Positions 35,598-43,710 of a DNA stretch of 64,000 bases are shown here, in pieces. Position 1 is the first letter of the stretch; each line of letters starts with the position of its first letter. The stretch is taken from contig NZ_CP109485.1 in the NCBI RefSeq assembly GCF_035918235.1, positions 2,666,001 to 2,730,000 on the forward strand, given 5' to 3'. The position numbers were made by a program, and so were the translations under genes. The notes under the pieces were generated by a model. It had not been told where the DNA came from, ran no database searches, and worked only from the letters and a program-made list of their open reading frames with translations. This stretch comes from Streptomyces sp. NBC_01445 (GTDB taxonomy: Bacteria > Actinomycetota > Actinomycetes > Streptomycetales > Streptomycetaceae).

Positions 35598-36572
35598 CTA
35601 GCCGGTGTGCCCCGCCGGGTGGTGCGGCTCGTAGCCCGGGATGGTGCCGTCCTCCTTCTTCACCAGGAAGAGCCCCACCATCCCCATGTCGGAGTGGCTC
35701 TGGACGTGGCAGTGGTACATCCAGGCGCCCGCCCCGACGCCCTCGCCCGCGATGATCTGGAAGCCGAACGAGTCCGCGGGGCCGACGATCTTGTTGTCGA
35801 CGACCTGGCTCGGGTCGTCCGGGCCGGTCAGCATGCCCGTGCGGTTGTCCGCCCAGCGATGACCGTGCATGTGGAAGGTGTGGTAGTACTCGCCGTGCGT
35901 GATCATGACGATCTCGACGCGATCACCCACCGTGGCCTCGAAGTCGGGACCTGAGTGCGCCGGCATGTTGTTGATGGTCATGTCGTTGAAGACGATCGTG
36001 AACGTGGTGTCCGGGAGGACGTCGCCCTTGCGCCGGACGATGACCGGCCCGTACAGGCCCTTGCGGATGCCACCGGTGCCGTGTTCCGTGCCGACGACGT
36101 GGTCGTGGTAGTGCCAGTACCCCGCGCTGCCCGCGCGCCACGTGCCGTCCTTGCGCCGGCCGGGAACGTGCGTCCGCCAGGTGTAGGTGCGCTTGCCGCC
36201 GGGCTCGACGTCGCTCTTGTTGAGCTTGGTGCCGTCGCTGGAGACCTCGTAGTCGAGGCCGTGGACGTGCAGGCTGGCCGCCACGTCCATCGTGTTCTCG
36301 AACTCGATGTGCAGGGTGTCGCCCTCGTTGAGCTCGATCAGAGGGCCGGGTACGGAGGCCTTGCCCTTCTCGAACCCGTAGCCCATCTGCCCGTCCGCGA
36401 GCTTCTCCGCGTACATCTTGATGCGCTTGACCTCACCGCCGGCCGGAGCCGTGCGCACCGGGCCTTCCGCGGGGGCGGCGTCCGTCGCCGCGATGAGCGA
36501 CAACGATGTCGCGGTCGTCGCGACGGCGGCCCCGCCCATCAGCACCCGCCGGTTGAAGCTGCGCCTGTCCAT
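35598..36572 (-). CDS. Small two-domain laccase (SLAC), multicopper oxidase
   Basis: This 324-residue exported copper oxidase oxidises phenols and reduces oxygen to water. It has a Tat signal ([14 protein letters not shown]). Copper ligands are seen at residues 102/104 (LHVHG), 154/156/158 (YWHYHDH), 231/234/236 (HTFHMHGH), and the type 1 set H231, C288, H293, M298 in [12 protein letters not shown]. Numbering from the ATG at 36572 coincides with S. coelicolor SLAC, including the redox-active Tyr108, which supports this start. Two-domain laccases assemble as trimers. It is divergent from a coupled sugar-dehydrogenase operon. Confidence 0.96.
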
Positions 36573-36614
36573 GCCGAACTCCCCACCCTCGTACGGGATT
36601 TGCGGACGTGCCAC

Positions 36615-36778
36615 CAGTGCCTGCCGTGACGACCAGAGAGACGGTAACCGGGTGATCTTCGTTTATCCACACTCAGGACAAAGTTCGTGCCATTGCGGCC
36701 ATACCTATTGGCGCGTCGCGAAAAGAGGTCTAGCTTCGTCCGCGCCGTACCTGTGACCGACGAGGGGTGGGTGAACTC
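36615..36778 (+). promoter_or_regulatory. Promoter of the ThuA-dehydrogenase operon
   Basis: TTGGCG (36708-36713), 17 bases, TAGCTT (36731-36736) precedes the operon, with a leader of about 40 bases. The spacer is shared with the divergent laccase, so coordinate control is possible. No clear operator palindrome is visible here. Confidence 0.55.
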
Positions 36779-39295
36779 ATGCGGTCCACGCCGCATCAAA
36801 AACCCTTGGGCGTAAGAGGGTTGGACAGAGACAGACGCAGACGACGCCGTGCAGTCGCCGCGGTCCTGGCGTCCGGGGCGGTCGCCGCCGGACTCCTTAC
36901 CGGGCCCGCCGCCAGCGCGCGTCCGGGTCCCGAACCATCCGTGACAACGATGTCCCTGCCGTCGCCTCCCGGCGGCTCGAATGTGCGCGTCCTGGTGTAC
37001 TACGGCTCCGCCGCGGGCGGCGACGAGTCACCGGTGGTGAACGCGGGAATCGCGGCCATCGAGAAGATCGGCCAGAGCGGCCCCGCCGCCCAGCGCTTCA
37101 AGATCACGGCGACGGACGACGCGTCCGTGTTCACCAACGCCACGAAGCTGGGCCGCTACAACGCGGTCGTCTTCCTGACCGGCGGCGGCGATGTGCTCGA
37201 CCCGGACCAGGAGGCGGGGCTCGAGTCGTTCATGGAGGCCGGCGGAGGGTTCGTCGGCATCCACGACGCGGCCCGCGCCGAGCCGTACTCGGACTGGTTC
37301 ACCGGCCTGATCGGCGCGCGTCCGGCCGACTCCAGCCCGGCGAACGTCCAGCGGGCCACCGTCGAGGTCGGTGACCGCCAGCATCCGGCCACCAAGGACC
37401 TTCCCGTGCAGTGGAAGCGGCCCGACCAGTGGCTGAACTGGGTGAAGAACCCGTCCGGCTCGGTGCACACAGTGGCCCGGGTCCGCGAGTCGACGTACCA
37501 GCCGGGCGCGAGCGCCAACGGCGCGGACCACCCGGTGTCCTGGTGCCGTGACTACGACGGCGGCCGCTCCTTCTACACGGGCATGGGCGGCACGGCCTCC
37601 AGCTACGACGAGGTGGACTTCCAGTCGCATCTGCGCGGCGCCCTGCTGTGGACGAGCCGCATCGTGCGCGCCGACTGCAAGGCCGCGATCGACTCCAACT
37701 ACAAGGCTGAGCGACTCACCCAGCCCAACCAGGCGGGGCAGAACGACCAGATCGGCGAGCCGCACGGCCTGGTCACCGCGCCCGACGGACGCGTCCTGTA
37801 CATCGGCCGCGGCGGCGCCGACTCCTCGCAGCCGGTGATCACCGACTGGAACAACCCCGACGTCGGCAAGGGCAAGGGCGAGATCCACGTCTACGACCCG
37901 AAGACCAAGAAGGTCACCCAGGCCGGGGCGCTCACCGTCTTCGGCAACAAGGGCGGCGGCGACGAGCTCACCAAGGTCGAGGAGGGGCTGCTCGGCATCG
38001 AGCTCGACCCGAAGTTCGAGCAGAACGGCTGGGTGTATCTGCACTACACGCCGCACTCGGGGCTCGACCGCGACAAGCAGATGGCCGAGCGGCAGGTCTC
38101 CCGCTTCACGCTCGACCTGAACACCAACAAGCTGGACCTGAGCAGCGAGAAGGTGCTGCTCAAGTGGCCGGTGCAGGTGCACAGTTGCTGCCACGCGGGT
38201 GGCGGGATGGCCTGGGACTCCAAGGGCAACCTGTACATCGCGACCGGTGACAACAACTCCTCCGGCTTCAGCGACGGCTACTCGGGCAACAACCCGCAGC
38301 CGAACTACAAGGGCGTCTCCTTCGCGGACGCGCGCCGCACCGCCGGCAACACGAACAACCTCAACGGCAAGATCCTGCGCATCCACCCGGAGGCCGACGG
38401 CACGTACACGCTGCCGGAGGGCAACCTCTTCACGGGCAAGGAGACCGCGGAGGGCGGCGGCAAGACCCGCGGCGAGATCTATGTGATGGGTGTCCGCAAC
38501 CCGGCGCGCATCTCCGTCGACAAGAAGACCGACACGCTGTACGCGGGCTGGGTCGGCCCGGACGCCGGTGAGCCGTCGACGACCTGGGGTCCGGCGAAGT
38601 ACGACACGTTCGCCGTGATCACCAAGGCGTCCAACCGTGGCTGGCCGTACTGCATGGGCAACAAGCAGCCCTACCGTGACCGCAATCTGCCGGACCCGAC
38701 GAAGCCGCTCGGCTGGTACGACTGCGACCACCCGAAGAACGAGTCGCCGAACAACAACGGCCTGGTCAACCTGCCGCCGGTGACCGGCAACAACATCTGG
38801 TACTCGCCGCAGGGCGGGGGGCCGGACTACCCGCGCGACGCCAACGGCATCCCCTCGTACAAGAAGGAGGAGGCCAAGTACCTCCTGCCGTGGCTGAAGG
38901 GCGGCGGGCAGGCCGCGATGGACGGGCCCGTCTACCGCTACGACGCGTCGATCCCGAACGCGGACAAGTGGCCGAGCTACTGGGACGGCAAGTGGTTCGT
39001 CGGCGACTTCTACGACGCCACGCAGCCGCGGCACGCGGTGATCACCGACCCGAAGACGGCCGGTGACGGCGGCATCCCGGTGCACGCCGAGAACCTCAAG
39101 AAGATCGTGCCGGTCGGCAACGACGGCATCAAGAACCTCATGGACTGGAAGTTCGGCCCCGACGGCGCGCTCTACGTCCTCGACTACGGCCGCGGCTTCT
39201 TCACCTCGGATGCCAAGTCGGCCCTGTGGAAGGTGACTTACACGGGCGGCGAGGCGACCCCTGCGGCCGGTGACCTGGCCAGGAAGGCGCAGTGA
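36779..39295 (+). CDS. Secreted ThuA domain / PQQ-type sugar dehydrogenase fusion
   Basis: This 838-residue exported protein starts at the ATG at 36779, followed by an arginine-rich segment and a signal peptide (AVAAVLASGAVAAGLLTGPA). Residues about 60-300 are a ThuA-like domain (VRVLVYYGSA, then VFLTGGGDVLDPDQEAGLESFMEAGGGFVGIHDA), a class-I-amidotransferase-like fold linked to 3-keto-sugar metabolism. Residues about 310-835 are a glucose/sorbosone dehydrogenase beta-propeller (HSCCHAGGGMAWDSKGNLYIATGDN, KFGPDGALYVLDYGRGFF). PQQ is the expected cofactor. Its stop overlaps the start of the next gene by ATGA, so the two are coupled. Confidence 0.9.
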   Translation: MRSTPHQKPLGVRGLDRDRRRRRRAVAAVLASGAVAAGLLTGPAASARPGPEPSVTTMSLPSPPGGSNVRVLVYYGSAAGGDESPVVNAGIAAIEKIGQSGPAAQRFKITATDDASVFTNATKLGRYNAVVFLTGGGDVLDPDQEAGLESFMEAGGGFVGIHDAARAEPYSDWFTGLIGARPADSSPANVQRATVEVGDRQHPATKDLPVQWKRPDQWLNWVKNPSGSVHTVARVRESTYQPGASANGADHPVSWCRDYDGGRSFYTGMGGTASSYDEVDFQSHLRGALLWTSRIVRADCKAAIDSNYKAERLTQPNQAGQNDQIGEPHGLVTAPDGRVLYIGRGGADSSQPVITDWNNPDVGKGKGEIHVYDPKTKKVTQAGALTVFGNKGGGDELTKVEEGLLGIELDPKFEQNGWVYLHYTPHSGLDRDKQMAERQVSRFTLDLNTNKLDLSSEKVLLKWPVQVHSCCHAGGGMAWDSKGNLYIATGDNNSSGFSDGYSGNNPQPNYKGVSFADARRTAGNTNNLNGKILRIHPEADGTYTLPEGNLFTGKETAEGGGKTRGEIYVMGVRNPARISVDKKTDTLYAGWVGPDAGEPSTTWGPAKYDTFAVITKASNRGWPYCMGNKQPYRDRNLPDPTKPLGWYDCDHPKNESPNNNGLVNLPPVTGNNIWYSPQGGGPDYPRDANGIPSYKKEEAKYLLPWLKGGGQAAMDGPVYRYDASIPNADKWPSYWDGKWFVGDFYDATQPRHAVITDPKTAGDGGIPVHAENLKKIVPVGNDGIKNLMDWKFGPDGALYVLDYGRGFFTSDAKSALWKVTYTGGEATPAAGDLARKAQ

Positions 39296-41502
39296 TGAGG
39301 ATCCGCACCAAGAACCGGCGAAGACTGTGGACGGCGCTGTTCGCCGCCGTGCTGCTGATGCTCGGACTCGGCTCCCCCGTCGCGTTCGGGCAGGACGCCC
39401 CGGTCGCCGCGGCCCAGCAGGTCCTGAACTGGACCGGCAGTGACGACATCACCAAGTACGCCTCGGCGCCGACCACTGCGGTGGCGGGCGCGACGACGAT
39501 CGTCTTCGAGAACAGCGCGGCGACCGGCAACACCATGGGCATGCCGCACACGCTGACGTTCGACACGTCGGACCCCGAGTACAACAACGACGTGTCGGTG
39601 AACATCCTGGCCAACCCGAACGACAGTGAGGGCGGCAAGCACTCGGTCGAGGTCACCCTGACCCCGGGCCGTTACCGCTACCACTGCTCGATCCCCGGCC
39701 ACGAGGGCATGCAGGGCATCCTCGTCGTGACCGAGGGCGGCGGCGAGGACACGGCCGCACCGGAGACCTCGGCGAAGGTCGAGGGGCAGAAGAACGCTCA
39801 AGGGGAGTACGTCGGTTCGGCGTCGGTCAGTGTGACGGCGACGGACGCGGGCTCCGGGGTCGACAAGGTCGAGTACGCGGTCGGCGCCGACGGCGCCTGG
39901 CAGCCGTACACGACCGCGGTGGTCGTCGACCAGGTCGGTACGCACAAGATCCGCTACCGGGCGTCCGACAAGGCGGGGAACGTGGCGGCGGAGAAGTCGG
40001 TCGACTTCACCGTGGTCGCGCCGCCGACGGACGACAAGACGCCTCCGGAGACCTCGGCGACGGTGAGCGGCGAGAAGAACGACAAGGGCGAGTACCTCTC
40101 GATGGCGACGGTCACGGTGACGGCCTCCGACACCGGATCCGGCGTCAACTCCATCGAGTACGCGGTGGGTTCGGACGGCGCCTGGCAGCCGTACACCTCC
40201 CCTGTGATGGTGCACGAAGTGGGCGCCCACACCGTGCGCTACCGGGCCGCGGACAAGGCGGGGAACGTGGCGGCGGAGAAGTCGGTCGACTTCACCGTGG
40301 TCGCGCCGCCCGTCCAGGACAAGACGCCGCCCGAGGTGTCGGCGAAGGTCGACGGCGACAAGAACTCCGACGGCGCGTACCTCAAGAGCGCCAAGGTGAC
40401 GGTCTCCGCGACGGACGCCGACTCGGGCGTCGAGAAGATCGAGTACTCGCTCGACGCGGGCCCCTACCTCGCCTACACCGCGCCGGTCGTGGTGGACCGG
40501 GCGGGCGCGCACACGGTCGCGTACCGAGCGAGCGACAAGGCCGGCAACACGTCGGCGGCGAAGTCGGAGGCCTTCACGGTCACGACGGGCGGCGGGGTCC
40601 CGGCGCCCAACTGCGCCGAGTTCGACGAGCGGTTGACGGTGATCGTCGGCACGGTCGACACGGGCATCCCGAACCGGGTCACCAACAACCGGTGCCGGAT
40701 CAACGAGTTGATCGAGGACGAGCGGGAGTGGACCTCGCAGGCCCTCTTCCTCAAGCACGTCAAGACCGTCACCGACAAGCTCCTCAAGGAAGGCGTGATC
40801 GACCAGCGCGAGTACAACAAGATCAACCGCGCCGCCAGGCAGTCGGGGATCGGCAAGCCCGGCCAGACCGAGGGCTACCGCAAGATCTTCGACGGCACGC
40901 AGGGCTCGCTCGACAAGTGGGAGCAGGTCGGCGGCGGCAAGTTCGGCCTGAACGCGGACGGCTCGATCACGTCGAGCACCACCGTCGAGGGCATGGGCAT
41001 GCTGTGGTTCCCGCAGCGCAAGTACGGCGACTTCTCGCTGAAGCTCCAGTGGCGGGACGACGCACCGGGCACCGGCAACGCCAACGGCGGTGTCTTCGTG
41101 CGCTTCCCGTGGGTCCACGACCACCCGGAGGAGTCGCGGCCGGAGTGGGTCGCCATCAAGTACGGGCACGAGGTGCAGGTCCTCGACCGTCCTGACGGCG
41201 ACATGTACAAGACCGGTTCGATCTACGGCTTCGACCGCGTGGGTCTTGCGGGCGCGGGCGTCACCCAGAAGGGCACGTGGAACGACTACGAGATCCGTGT
41301 GGTCGGCCAGCACTTCTCGATCCTGCGCAACGGCGTCCTGATCAACGAGTTCGACAACACCGGCGGCCAGGTCTTCGAGCCCCCGCGCGGGGACGACCCG
41401 GGCACGGACGGCCGGCGGTACTCCTCCGGCTATGTCGGGCTCCAGGTGCACAGCACGACGGACGTCATCTCGTACCGGGACATCCGCGTCAAGGAGCTGT
41501 AA
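39292..41502 (+). CDS. Secreted cupredoxin / Ig-like repeats / DUF1080 protein
   Basis: A 736-residue exported protein with a mosaic layout. A signal peptide (AALFAAVLLMLGLGSPVAFG) is followed by a plastocyanin-like domain (about 40-147) with type 1 copper ligands H86, C132, H137, M140 (HTLTF, HCSIPGHEGM). Next come three Ig-like or OmpL47-type repeats of about 95 residues (152-432), two of which share a 59-base identical DNA stretch. After a helical linker the C-terminal domain (about 530-736) is DUF1080, the 3-keto-disaccharide-hydrolase/concanavalin-like fold. It is translationally coupled to the ThuA/sugar dehydrogenase gene. It could be an electron acceptor and a sugar hydrolase at once. 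Confidence 0.87.
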   Translation: MMRIRTKNRRRLWTALFAAVLLMLGLGSPVAFGQDAPVAAAQQVLNWTGSDDITKYASAPTTAVAGATTIVFENSAATGNTMGMPHTLTFDTSDPEYNNDVSVNILANPNDSEGGKHSVEVTLTPGRYRYHCSIPGHEGMQGILVVTEGGGEDTAAPETSAKVEGQKNAQGEYVGSASVSVTATDAGSGVDKVEYAVGADGAWQPYTTAVVVDQVGTHKIRYRASDKAGNVAAEKSVDFTVVAPPTDDKTPPETSATVSGEKNDKGEYLSMATVTVTASDTGSGVNSIEYAVGSDGAWQPYTSPVMVHEVGAHTVRYRAADKAGNVAAEKSVDFTVVAPPVQDKTPPEVSAKVDGDKNSDGAYLKSAKVTVSATDADSGVEKIEYSLDAGPYLAYTAPVVVDRAGAHTVAYRASDKAGNTSAAKSEAFTVTTGGGVPAPNCAEFDERLTVIVGTVDTGIPNRVTNNRCRINELIEDEREWTSQALFLKHVKTVTDKLLKEGVIDQREYNKINRAARQSGIGKPGQTEGYRKIFDGTQGSLDKWEQVGGGKFGLNADGSITSSTTVEGMGMLWFPQRKYGDFSLKLQWRDDAPGTGNANGGVFVRFPWVHDHPEESRPEWVAIKYGHEVQVLDRPDGDMYKTGSIYGFDRVGLAGAGVTQKGTWNDYEIRVVGQHFSILRNGVLINEFDNTGGQVFEPPRGDDPGTDGRRYSSGYVGLQVHSTTDVISYRDIRVKEL
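39967..40310 (+). repeat. Exact 59-base intragenic direct repeat
   Basis: 39967-40025 and 40252-40310 are identical, 285 bases (95 codons) apart, inside the Ig-like repeats of the cupredoxin-DUF1080 gene. Flanking parts of the units have diverged, which points to recent gene conversion or strong constraint in this strand. Confidence 0.85.
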
Positions 41503-41533: not shown

Positions 41534-41568
41534 CGAGCCGGGTCAGTCCTCGTGTCTGGCCCGGCTCG
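41534..41568. terminator. Hairpin between cupredoxin-DUF1080 and LigD-polymerase genes
   Basis: CGAGCCGGG (41534-41542) pairs with CCCGGCTCG (41560-41568), and the loop contains the stop of the polymerase gene. It lies between convergent genes. Confidence 0.55.
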
Positions 41569-42568
41569 GCTGTACCCGCTTGGGCTCGCCCGGCATCTTC
41601 GGGTACTCGGGCGGGTACGGCATGTCGCCGAGGCCGCGGTCCCGTTCGTCCCGGTCGGCGAGTTCGAGGAGCGCGTCGAGCCGGAAGGCATGCTCGTCCA
41701 TGTCCTCGTGGACGTCGCCGAGTTCGGCGTAGCGGGACGGCATCGACCCGATGTCGAAGTCGGCCGGGCGCGCGTCGTCGACCTCGTCCCAGCGCAGCGG
41801 CGCGGAGACGGGGGCGTTCGGCCGTGGCCGTACCGAGTAGGCGGAGGCGATGGTGCGGTCGCGTGCGGTCTGGTTGAAGTCGACGAAGATGCGCTCGCCG
41901 CGCTCCTCCTTCCACCAGGCCGTGGTGGCACGGTCGGGCATACGGCGCTCCAGCTCGCGGCCGCAGGCGATGGCCGCGCGGCGCACCTCGACGAACGTCC
42001 AGTGCGGGGCGATCGGCACGAAGACGTGCATGCCGCGGCCGCCGGACGTCTTGGGCCAGCCGCGCAGACCGCCGAAGTCATGGAGGACGGAGCGCAGCTC
42101 GTGGGCGGCGCGGACGGCGTCGGTGTAGTCGGTGCCGGGCTGCGGGTCGAGGTCGATGCGCAGCTCGTCGGGGTGGTCGGGGTGCGCGCGCCGGACGGGC
42201 CAGGGGTGGAAGGTGAGGGTGCCGTACTGGGCCGCCCAGATGACGGCGGCGATCTCGGTGGGGCACATCTCGTCCGCGTGGCGCCCGCTGGGGAAGGTGA
42301 TGGTGCCGGTGGGGATCCAGTCGGGCAGGTTCTTGGCGGCGCGCTTCTGGTAGAAGGACTCGCCGTCCAGGCCCTCGGGGTAGCGCTGGAGGGTGGTGGG
42401 GCGGTCGCGCAGGGCGCGCACGATGCCGGGGCCGACGGAGAGGAAGTAGCGGGCGAGGTCGAGCTTGGTGTAACCGGGCTCGGGGAACATGACCCGGTCC
42501 GGGCTGGACAGGCGTACCGTCCGCTCCCCCGCCTCCAGCTCCACGGCCGCACCGTTCGACTTGCCCAT
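41543..42568 (-). CDS. LigD-type polymerase/primase domain protein
   Basis: A 341-residue stand-alone archaeo-eukaryotic-primase-like polymerase, the module that fills gaps during non-homologous end joining. The ATG at 42568 gives MGKSNGAAVELEAGERTVRLSS. Catalytic acids are in RIDLDPQPGTDY (about D139 and D141), and the TSGGRGMHVFVPI motif near residue 175 supplies the conserved histidine. In mycobacteria this module is fused with ligase and nuclease; here it is separate and divergent from the ligase gene. No Ku gene lies in the window. Confidence 0.92.
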   Translation of the reverse strand: MGKSNGAAVELEAGERTVRLSSPDRVMFPEPGYTKLDLARYFLSVGPGIVRALRDRPTTLQRYPEGLDGESFYQKRAAKNLPDWIPTGTITFPSGRHADEMCPTEIAAVIWAAQYGTLTFHPWPVRRAHPDHPDELRIDLDPQPGTDYTDAVRAAHELRSVLHDFGGLRGWPKTSGGRGMHVFVPIAPHWTFVEVRRAAIACGRELERRMPDRATTAWWKEERGERIFVDFNQTARDRTIASAYSVRPRPNAPVSAPLRWDEVDDARPADFDIGSMPSRYAELGDVHEDMDEHAFRLDALLELADRDERDRGLGDMPYPPEYPKMPGEPKRVQPSRARHED

Positions 42569-42642
42569 GCGGGCCACGCTAGGCGCATCGGCCTCCGTGC
42601 GCATACCGGGCGGGTGACGGCGTATCGCGACAGAATCGGCTC

Positions 42643-43710
42643 ATGGTCATGGATCTGCCGGTGATGCCGCCCGTGAAGCCGATGCTCGCCAAGTCCGTCG
42701 CGAAGATCCCGCCGGGGATGAGTTACGAGGCGAAATGGGACGGCTTCCGCGCGATCGTGTTCCGTGACGGCGCGGACCTGGAGATCGGCAGCCGCACGGG
42801 CAAGCCCCTGACCCGCTACTTCCCCGAACTGGTCGCCGCCCTCCTCGACCGGCTGCCGGAGCGCTGTGTCCTCGACGGCGAGATCGTGATCGCCAGGGAC
42901 GGCCGGCTCGACTTCGACGCGCTCACCGAACGCATCCACCCGGCCGCGTCCCGGGTGAAGACGCTGGCGGAGCGCACCCCGGCGTCGTTCGTGGCGTTCG
43001 ACGTACTGGCCCTCGGCGACGAGTCGCTGATGGACACGCCCCTGGTGGACCGCCGGTCCCGCCTGGCCGAGGCGCTGTCCGGCGCGACGCCGCCCGTCCA
43101 CCTGGCCCCGTCGACGACCGACGCCGAGCTGGCGCAGACGTGGTTCGAGCAGTACGAGGGCGCGGGCCTCGACGGGGTGATCGCCAAGCCGTTCGACCTG
43201 CGCTACCGCGAGAACGAACGCCTGATGTTCAAGATCAAGCACGAGCGGACCGCGGACTGTGTCGTGGCCGGCTACCGCTTCCACAAGAGCGGCCCGGTCG
43301 TCGGCTCCCTGCTGCTCGGCCTGTACGACGACGAGGGCGTTCTCCAGCACGTGGGCGTGTGCGCGGCGTTCACGATGAAGCGGCGTACGGAGCTGATCGC
43401 GGAGCTGGAGCCGCTGCGCCTCGAGTCGGCGCAGGACCATCCGTGGGCCGCGTGGACCGAGGAGTCGGCGCACGAGAAGGCCCGCCTGCCCGGGGCGACG
43501 AGCCGCTGGACCGGCAAGAAGGACCTGTCGTGGGTGCCCCTCGAACCGCGGCTCGTCGCCGAGGTGGCGTACGAGCACATGGAGAACGGCGCGCGCTTTC
43601 GCCACACGGCCCGCTTCCGCCGTTGGCGCCCGGACCGGACGCCCGAGAGCTGCACGTACGCGCAGCTGGACGAGCCGGTGCGGTACGACTTGGCGGATGT
43701 CCTGCGCTAG
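42643..43710 (+). CDS. ATP-dependent DNA ligase (LigC/LigD ligase type)
   Basis: This 355-residue ligase consists of an adenylation domain and an OB-fold domain without further modules. The adenylated lysine is K31 in YEAKWDGFRA. Other nucleotidyl-transferase motifs are LDGEIVI and FDVLAL, then GVIAKPFDLRYRENERLMFKIK. It is transcribed divergently from the polymerase gene across 74 bases, consistent with a two-gene end-joining or base-excision repair unit. The ATG at 42643 is taken; the second at 42649 is as likely. Confidence 0.94.
   Translation: MVMDLPVMPPVKPMLAKSVAKIPPGMSYEAKWDGFRAIVFRDGADLEIGSRTGKPLTRYFPELVAALLDRLPERCVLDGEIVIARDGRLDFDALTERIHPAASRVKTLAERTPASFVAFDVLALGDESLMDTPLVDRRSRLAEALSGATPPVHLAPSTTDAELAQTWFEQYEGAGLDGVIAKPFDLRYRENERLMFKIKHERTADCVVAGYRFHKSGPVVGSLLLGLYDDEGVLQHVGVCAAFTMKRRTELIAELEPLRLESAQDHPWAAWTEESAHEKARLPGATSRWTGKKDLSWVPLEPRLVAEVAYEHMENGARFRHTARFRRWRPDRTPESCTYAQLDEPVRYDLADVLR

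Follow-up and report, generated by a model that had tools for sequence, protein, structure and literature searches.

A conserved actinobacterial gene cluster that may provide small laccases with a sugar dehydrogenase, a cupredoxin and a DUF1080 enzyme as partners

What is the natural job of the small laccase of a soil actinobacterium? We know of no agreed natural partner of the Streptomyces small laccases. The question is raised by a locus in a 64,000-nucleotide stretch (the window) of Streptomyces sp. NBC_01445 (contig NZ_CP109485.1, positions 2,666,001 to 2,730,000). Here, a laccase gene (LAC) is divergent from a gene for a ThuA and sugar dehydrogenase fusion (TG), and a gene for a cupredoxin and DUF1080 protein (CD) lies downstream of TG. 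A sequence-only reading of the window had proposed that the three form one functional system. Performing Pfam, NCBIfam and phmmer searches, we find the three genes at the places and with the domains it had given them:

35598..36572, minus strand (likely extent; open reading frame 35598-36614): LAC, a two-domain laccase of the SLAC type, identified by Pfam, its match to 3cg8 and its copper-ligand positions
36779..39295, plus strand (likely extent; open reading frame 36767-39295): TG, a ThuA + GSDH protein with the fold of pyrroloquinoline quinone (PQQ) sugar dehydrogenases, probably secreted, identified by profile and fold
36986..37654, plus strand: ThuA domain of TG, residues 74-296 (Pfam, 202.8 bits)
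37682..39259, plus strand: GSDH beta-propeller of TG, residues 306-831 (Pfam, 88.3 bits)
38180..38194, plus strand: HSCCH motif of TG, residues 472-476, whose final residue lines up with His144 of soluble glucose dehydrogenase (sGDH)
39295..41502, plus strand (likely extent; open reading frame 39292-41502): CD, a cupredoxin followed by three OmpL47 immunoglobulin-like (Ig) repeats, a helical linker and DUF1080
39400..39741, plus strand: cupredoxin domain of CD, residues 37-150 (Pfam Copper-bind, 27.3 bits against a cut-off of 21.2)
39748..40584, plus strand: the three OmpL47-type Ig repeats of CD (NCBIfam NF047446, three stretches)
40873..41499, plus strand: DUF1080 / 3-keto-disaccharide hydrolase domain of CD, residues 528-736 (Pfam 3keto-disac_hyd, 114.3 bits)

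The likely start of TG is the ATG at 36779. The TG stop overlaps the likely CD start in TGATG (39293-39297), in keeping with the proposed translational coupling of this pair.

We searched one draw of 121 Streptomyces genomes with TG, LAC and CD alike, counting matches of 66% identity or more as TG orthologues. LAC was matched in 74 genomes, a TG orthologue in 72 and CD in 73. Both LAC and TG were found in 71 genomes, while 3 had LAC alone, 1 had TG alone and 46 had neither (Fisher p = 1.4e-28, a statistic that ignores the kinship of the genomes). The two genes were adjacent in all 71 genomes having both, and CD also adjoined in 70. The LAC-TG-CD clustering is not chance, because the three genes stand together in 70/121 genomes. 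The sequence-only reading had named a pair occurring mostly without the laccase as the finding that would speak against it; the opposite is seen, as 71 of the 72 TG genomes carry LAC. A few genomes depart from the pattern. CD lies on a different contig from LAC and TG in G120, and G073 has TG and CD only, its contig stopping 290 bases past the TG match, at the expected place of LAC. In G048 (L011:7291-8067), TG is gone and a deletion scar has brought the 3′ parts of LAC and CD face to face. In G116, LAC sits beside ligase-like genes, and a TG orthologue and CD are absent from the genome. The laccase is likewise present without TG and CD in G058, and G037 has a shortened CD lacking DUF1080.

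Next to the Streptomyces draw, a class-wide draw of 216 genomes gave LAC in 34 (13 Streptomyces and 21 others). Comparing positions by eye, we found LAC next to a TG-like gene (at least 55% identity) in 33 of these 34, the exception being G422; conversely, each of the 33 genomes that carry a TG-like gene at this level also carries LAC. Six further genomes have distant TG matches only (42% identity or less), and these have no LAC. In a phylum draw of 296 genomes, LAC was present at 48-56% identity in eight non-Streptomyces genomes that gave no match to TG at E 1e-90; thus, the link is a feature of the class and not of all such laccases. We also scanned named genomes with a TG-DUF1080 dehydrogenase (TGD) as query and took the best 80 of 217 relatives, 9 from Streptomyces and the rest from other actinobacteria, some of them also fetched separately. 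Both LAC and a cupredoxin gene (C) were near the dehydrogenase in 75 of these 80 loci, which span 24 genera as counted from record titles. The genome-neighbourhood survey that the sequence-only reading had called for shows co-occurrence in the Streptomyces draw and among the named loci. Among the five incomplete loci, three (L101, L123, L136) end at a contig edge; in the flank examined, L075 lacks the cupredoxin and L079 lacks both.

The 75 complete loci have five gene orders: LAC>TGD>C in 55, C< LAC>TGD in 10, CD>LAC>TGD in 7, LAC< TGD>C in 2 and TGD>C>LAC in 1. The window has a sixth. These orders bear on the view that the proteins are separate secreted plant-biomass enzymes, joined by common regulation and ecological use and exchanging no electrons. 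The divergent promoter region shared in Streptomyces would fit this view, as would the carbohydrate substrates suggested by an F5/8 type C insert in a fused dehydrogenase and by CBM6 in distant relatives. However, the linkage persists through six gene orders, co-directional as well as divergent, and one shared promoter is therefore insufficient as an explanation. We consider such separate enzymes quite improbable.

The domain arrangement also varies. In most of the non-Streptomyces loci fetched, DUF1080 is on the dehydrogenase polypeptide, and the next polypeptide is a cupredoxin with Ig repeats and without DUF1080. In one such pair, Pfam finds ThuA with the F5/8 type C insert, GSDH, PKD and DUF1080, and then the cupredoxin with Ig. 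A tree of 67 DUF1080 domains, selected from those at hand, places the cupredoxin-borne and the dehydrogenase-borne domains in separate clades (97/83 and 98/93), the former also including a free-standing domain of L037. Some Micromonospora and Phytohabitans loci carry both kinds. Since the two clades are separate, the same enzyme type is tied to the cluster in two places, and a simple swap of one domain between the polypeptides is rejected. A suspected dehydrogenase-cupredoxin fusion in Micromonospora (long tblastn ranges) was also rejected, as a stop after DUF1080 splits two open reading frames, and so was an apparent fusion in G043 (L026), where the two reading frames differ. Separately, a ThuA-DUF1080 fusion lies some 1.9 kb away from the laccase of G120 (L036:9128-10867), and in G047 a GSDH gene adjoins a separate DUF1080 gene (L037:4050-8003).

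We then consider each part. In TG, ThuA matches its family profile and fold, and GSDH has the beta-propeller of PQQ sugar dehydrogenases together with their key residues. Its catalytic His and the Arg-Asn of the PQQ site align with His144, Arg228 and Asn229 of sGDH, which we take to be the catalytic and PQQ-site residues there; the C-terminal half, where the remaining PQQ and calcium ligands would lie, falls below the alignment threshold against sGDH. The HSCCH motif is present in 121 of 122 close TG rows and in 0 of 20 distant rows. TG homologues of 84-87% identity occur in Streptomyces, and the N-terminal segment of TG is missing from distant paralogues. Compared with the soluble PQQ aldose dehydrogenases (sGDH 1c9u, Asd 2g8s, S. 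coelicolor Adh 3das), TG differs by its fused ThuA, the HSCCH at the active-site His, the neighbouring cupredoxin gene and the lack of a PqqC link. A GSDH-PKD-cytochrome c-CBM6 protein of Runella slithyformis (Bacteroidota) belongs to the same dehydrogenase family and carries an attached one-electron carrier; that carrier is a fused haem, whereas in the window a blue-copper carrier is encoded by the neighbouring gene. The 7.3 kb Runella stretch has three annotated features, none of them a laccase. A ThuA-GSDH-PKD-CBM6-PKD paralogue of TG (42% identity) lies in the same genome as TG (L031:6593-10129), with no laccase or cupredoxin match in the stretch examined. Giant secreted-type proteins of other actinobacterial classes (L038, L041, L043; 2261-2897 residues) begin with ThuA-GSDH-PKD-CBM6, and that of L038 additionally contains DUF1080. 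A cupredoxin-like stretch of L041 scores under the Pfam cut-off and lacks a Met at the expected position; being weak support, it was set aside.

The cupredoxin domain of CD keeps its type-1 copper ligands H86, C132, H137 and M140 in 119/119 rows (114 distinct; the window copy is counted twice and some loci were fetched twice). This bears on a role in copper handling or morphogenesis, in which the laccase would obtain its copper from the cupredoxin, and the cell wall would be modified by the sugar enzymes. Copper proteins do cluster together, and Endo et al. are said to have tied EpoA of S. griseus to the onset of morphogenesis. However, a full Cys-containing type-1 site is the hallmark of electron transfer, and known copper chaperones use other motifs. 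We regard this role as very improbable. Laccases accompany a cupredoxin-Ig protein with no TG in L061 and L062. The same is seen in L060, where the contig begins within the cupredoxin gene and TG finds no match in the genome (G422). These loci favour a direct laccase-cupredoxin link; their genomes belong to one genus (g212), so we count them as one case. The best 50 Foldseek and VIA-align rows listed for CD are mostly DUF1080, Ig and lectin-like folds and include no cupredoxin fold, which is uninformative about that domain. DUF1080 matches the family profile and fold, and in fold is nearest to 3-keto-glycoside eliminase/hydratases, in keeping with the link to 3-keto-glycoside chemistry drawn earlier. 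The linker (residues 441-520) is similar to the tail of the giant relatives; its membership in FIMAH was considered and not established.

LAC contains Cu-oxidase_2 and Cu-oxidase_3 (Pfam) and is matched by 3cg8 at E 1.5e-190 (phmmer). As this match begins only at residue 15, translation probably begins with the Met at 36572 and not at the end of the open reading frame at 36614. Its N-terminus looks twin-arginine-like; the Sec and Tat assignments for LAC, TG and CD are by-eye readings of the N-termini. We take twelve positions, picked by motif, to be the type 1 and type 2/3 copper ligands; LAC of the window has all of them, and so do 122 of 131 rows. The nine other rows comprise truncated L027 and L011, L019 altered at the Met position only, and six second laccase copies. 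These copies come from pairs of neighbouring laccase genes in L046, L047, L050, L060, L061 and L062, where one gene lacks some copper-ligand positions. In window numbering, the change is H307Y in L050, L060 and L061, H307Y with two more changes in L062, and C302T, H307F and M312V with two further His changed in L046 and L047. It is as if the altered copy served a mixed trimer as a pseudo-subunit. Streptomyces small laccases have been studied intensively; among PDB sequences, 50 distinct two-domain laccases match LAC at E 1e-115 or better. LAC is a plain member of the group of SLAC, EpoA and Ssl1 (3cg8 and relatives), with the ligand positions kept. The portions of the literature at hand treat these laccases as stand-alone phenol oxidases, whereas LAC is part of a conserved cluster.

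Functional linkage of the laccase, dehydrogenase, cupredoxin and DUF1080 is strongly supported by these comparisons, because of the co-occurrence and adjacency, the 75 loci in five orders, DUF1080 on either polypeptide, the invariant ligands and the cytochrome c-fused relative. The earlier claim of a functional system thus stands for the linkage, and its electron-transfer chemistry is still conjecture. We propose that the cluster encodes a secreted redox module in which electrons from glycoside oxidation reach O2 via dehydrogenase, cupredoxin and laccase, as this chain, with DUF1080, is the simplest reading using every part; we hold it to be about evenly balanced between right and wrong. First, the GSDH propeller of TG, with the ThuA domain, would oxidise a sugar unit; the product would probably be a 3-keto-glycoside, and the PQQ would be either the cell's own or scavenged. 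Single electrons would pass to the type-1 copper of the CD cupredoxin domain. The reduced cupredoxin would dock at the type-1 copper of the laccase, and O2 would then be reduced to water by the laccase. Judging from the nearest solved structures, DUF1080 would cleave or hydrate the 3-keto product, and the Ig repeats may act as a spacer or stalk. We infer all four steps from the parts, the conserved clustering, the copper ligands and the folds, which are directly established. The more specific claim, that SLAC-type laccases of actinobacteria serve physiologically as the O2-reducing end of a secreted quinoprotein-cupredoxin chain whose 3-keto-glycosides are cleaved by the DUF1080 enzyme, is tentative, and we lean somewhat against it.

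The chemistry of the chain remains an inference, and we know of no C3-oxidising enzyme in the GSDH family. PqqC is encoded in the window genome (G000) and does not track the cluster in the 121 Streptomyces genomes (14 of 72 with TG versus 12 of 49 without); a link of PQQ synthesis to the cluster was looked for and not found.

The main rival is a phenolic-glycoside pathway, in which a phenolic glycoside from plants has its sugar oxidised by TG and is then split by DUF1080, so that the laccase acts on the phenol released. The laccase-made quinones or phenoxyl radicals would then re-oxidise the dehydrogenase, directly or via the cupredoxin. The nearness of DUF1080 to 3-keto-glycoside eliminase/hydratases fits this pathway. 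Elimination of a 3-keto-glucoside by an enzyme of another family releases a phenolic aglycone (PMC10628242), laccase-made radicals can act as oxidants for polysaccharide-oxidising enzymes (PMC13353379), and a silA laccase mutant of S. ipomoeae solubilised less straw lignin and released less CO2 (PMC5675413). By itself, however, the pathway requires neither an invariant type-1 cupredoxin nor the laccase and cupredoxin-Ig loci without TG (L060-L062), and we judge it unlikely.

The dehydrogenase-cupredoxin-laccase chain shares its oxidise-then-cleave logic and the DUF1080 family with the 3-keto-glycoside pathways of Caulobacter (LacABC + DUF1080) and Bacteroides (BT2157) (PMC9007349). The oxidiser there is the periplasmic LacABC, whereas the window, from a Gram-positive, has a GSDH protein, a copper carrier and an O2-reducing laccase.

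The locus is in any case a real, widely conserved cluster built from known enzyme types. A description of it was not found among the matches listed from the open-access literature (titles and abstract starts). The conserved partner genes give small laccases a concrete, directly testable physiological hypothesis, and the clustering suggests that in soil actinobacteria they pass sugar electrons to oxygen outside the cell. If true, the chain would be an extracellular, oxygen-driven alternative to glycoside hydrolysis, and it would join copper oxidases to 3-keto-glycoside breakdown, fields that are unconnected among the literature matches listed.

The region between LAC and TG has two further features:

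36660..36737, no strand: conserved core of the divergent promoter region, 78 bases, from an alignment of 26 Streptomyces rows in which the window is counted twice
36708-36736: candidate TG promoter TTGGCG-17-TAGCTT, read by eye

Mean pairwise identity, calculated from 25 rows, is 0.76 in the core versus 0.45 to its left and 0.63 to its right, and the core is a possible operator common to LAC and TG. A sigma-70 consensus scan found no site, so the candidate promoter stays a by-eye proposal. Rfam gave no match at the gathering threshold. Neighbouring GMC oxidoreductase and GH64 genes were dropped as cluster parts: among 30 loci, several of them too short to reveal flanking genes, GMC was found only in the window and L028, and GH64 only in L022. 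Choline dehydrogenase models match the GMC protein near the cluster, but score under their cut-offs. The triad is flanked, at 41543-43710, by two genes with the working labels LigD-polymerase-like and ligase-like; their relatives adjoin the triad in L021, L022, L023, L024 and L029, and the laccase in L014.
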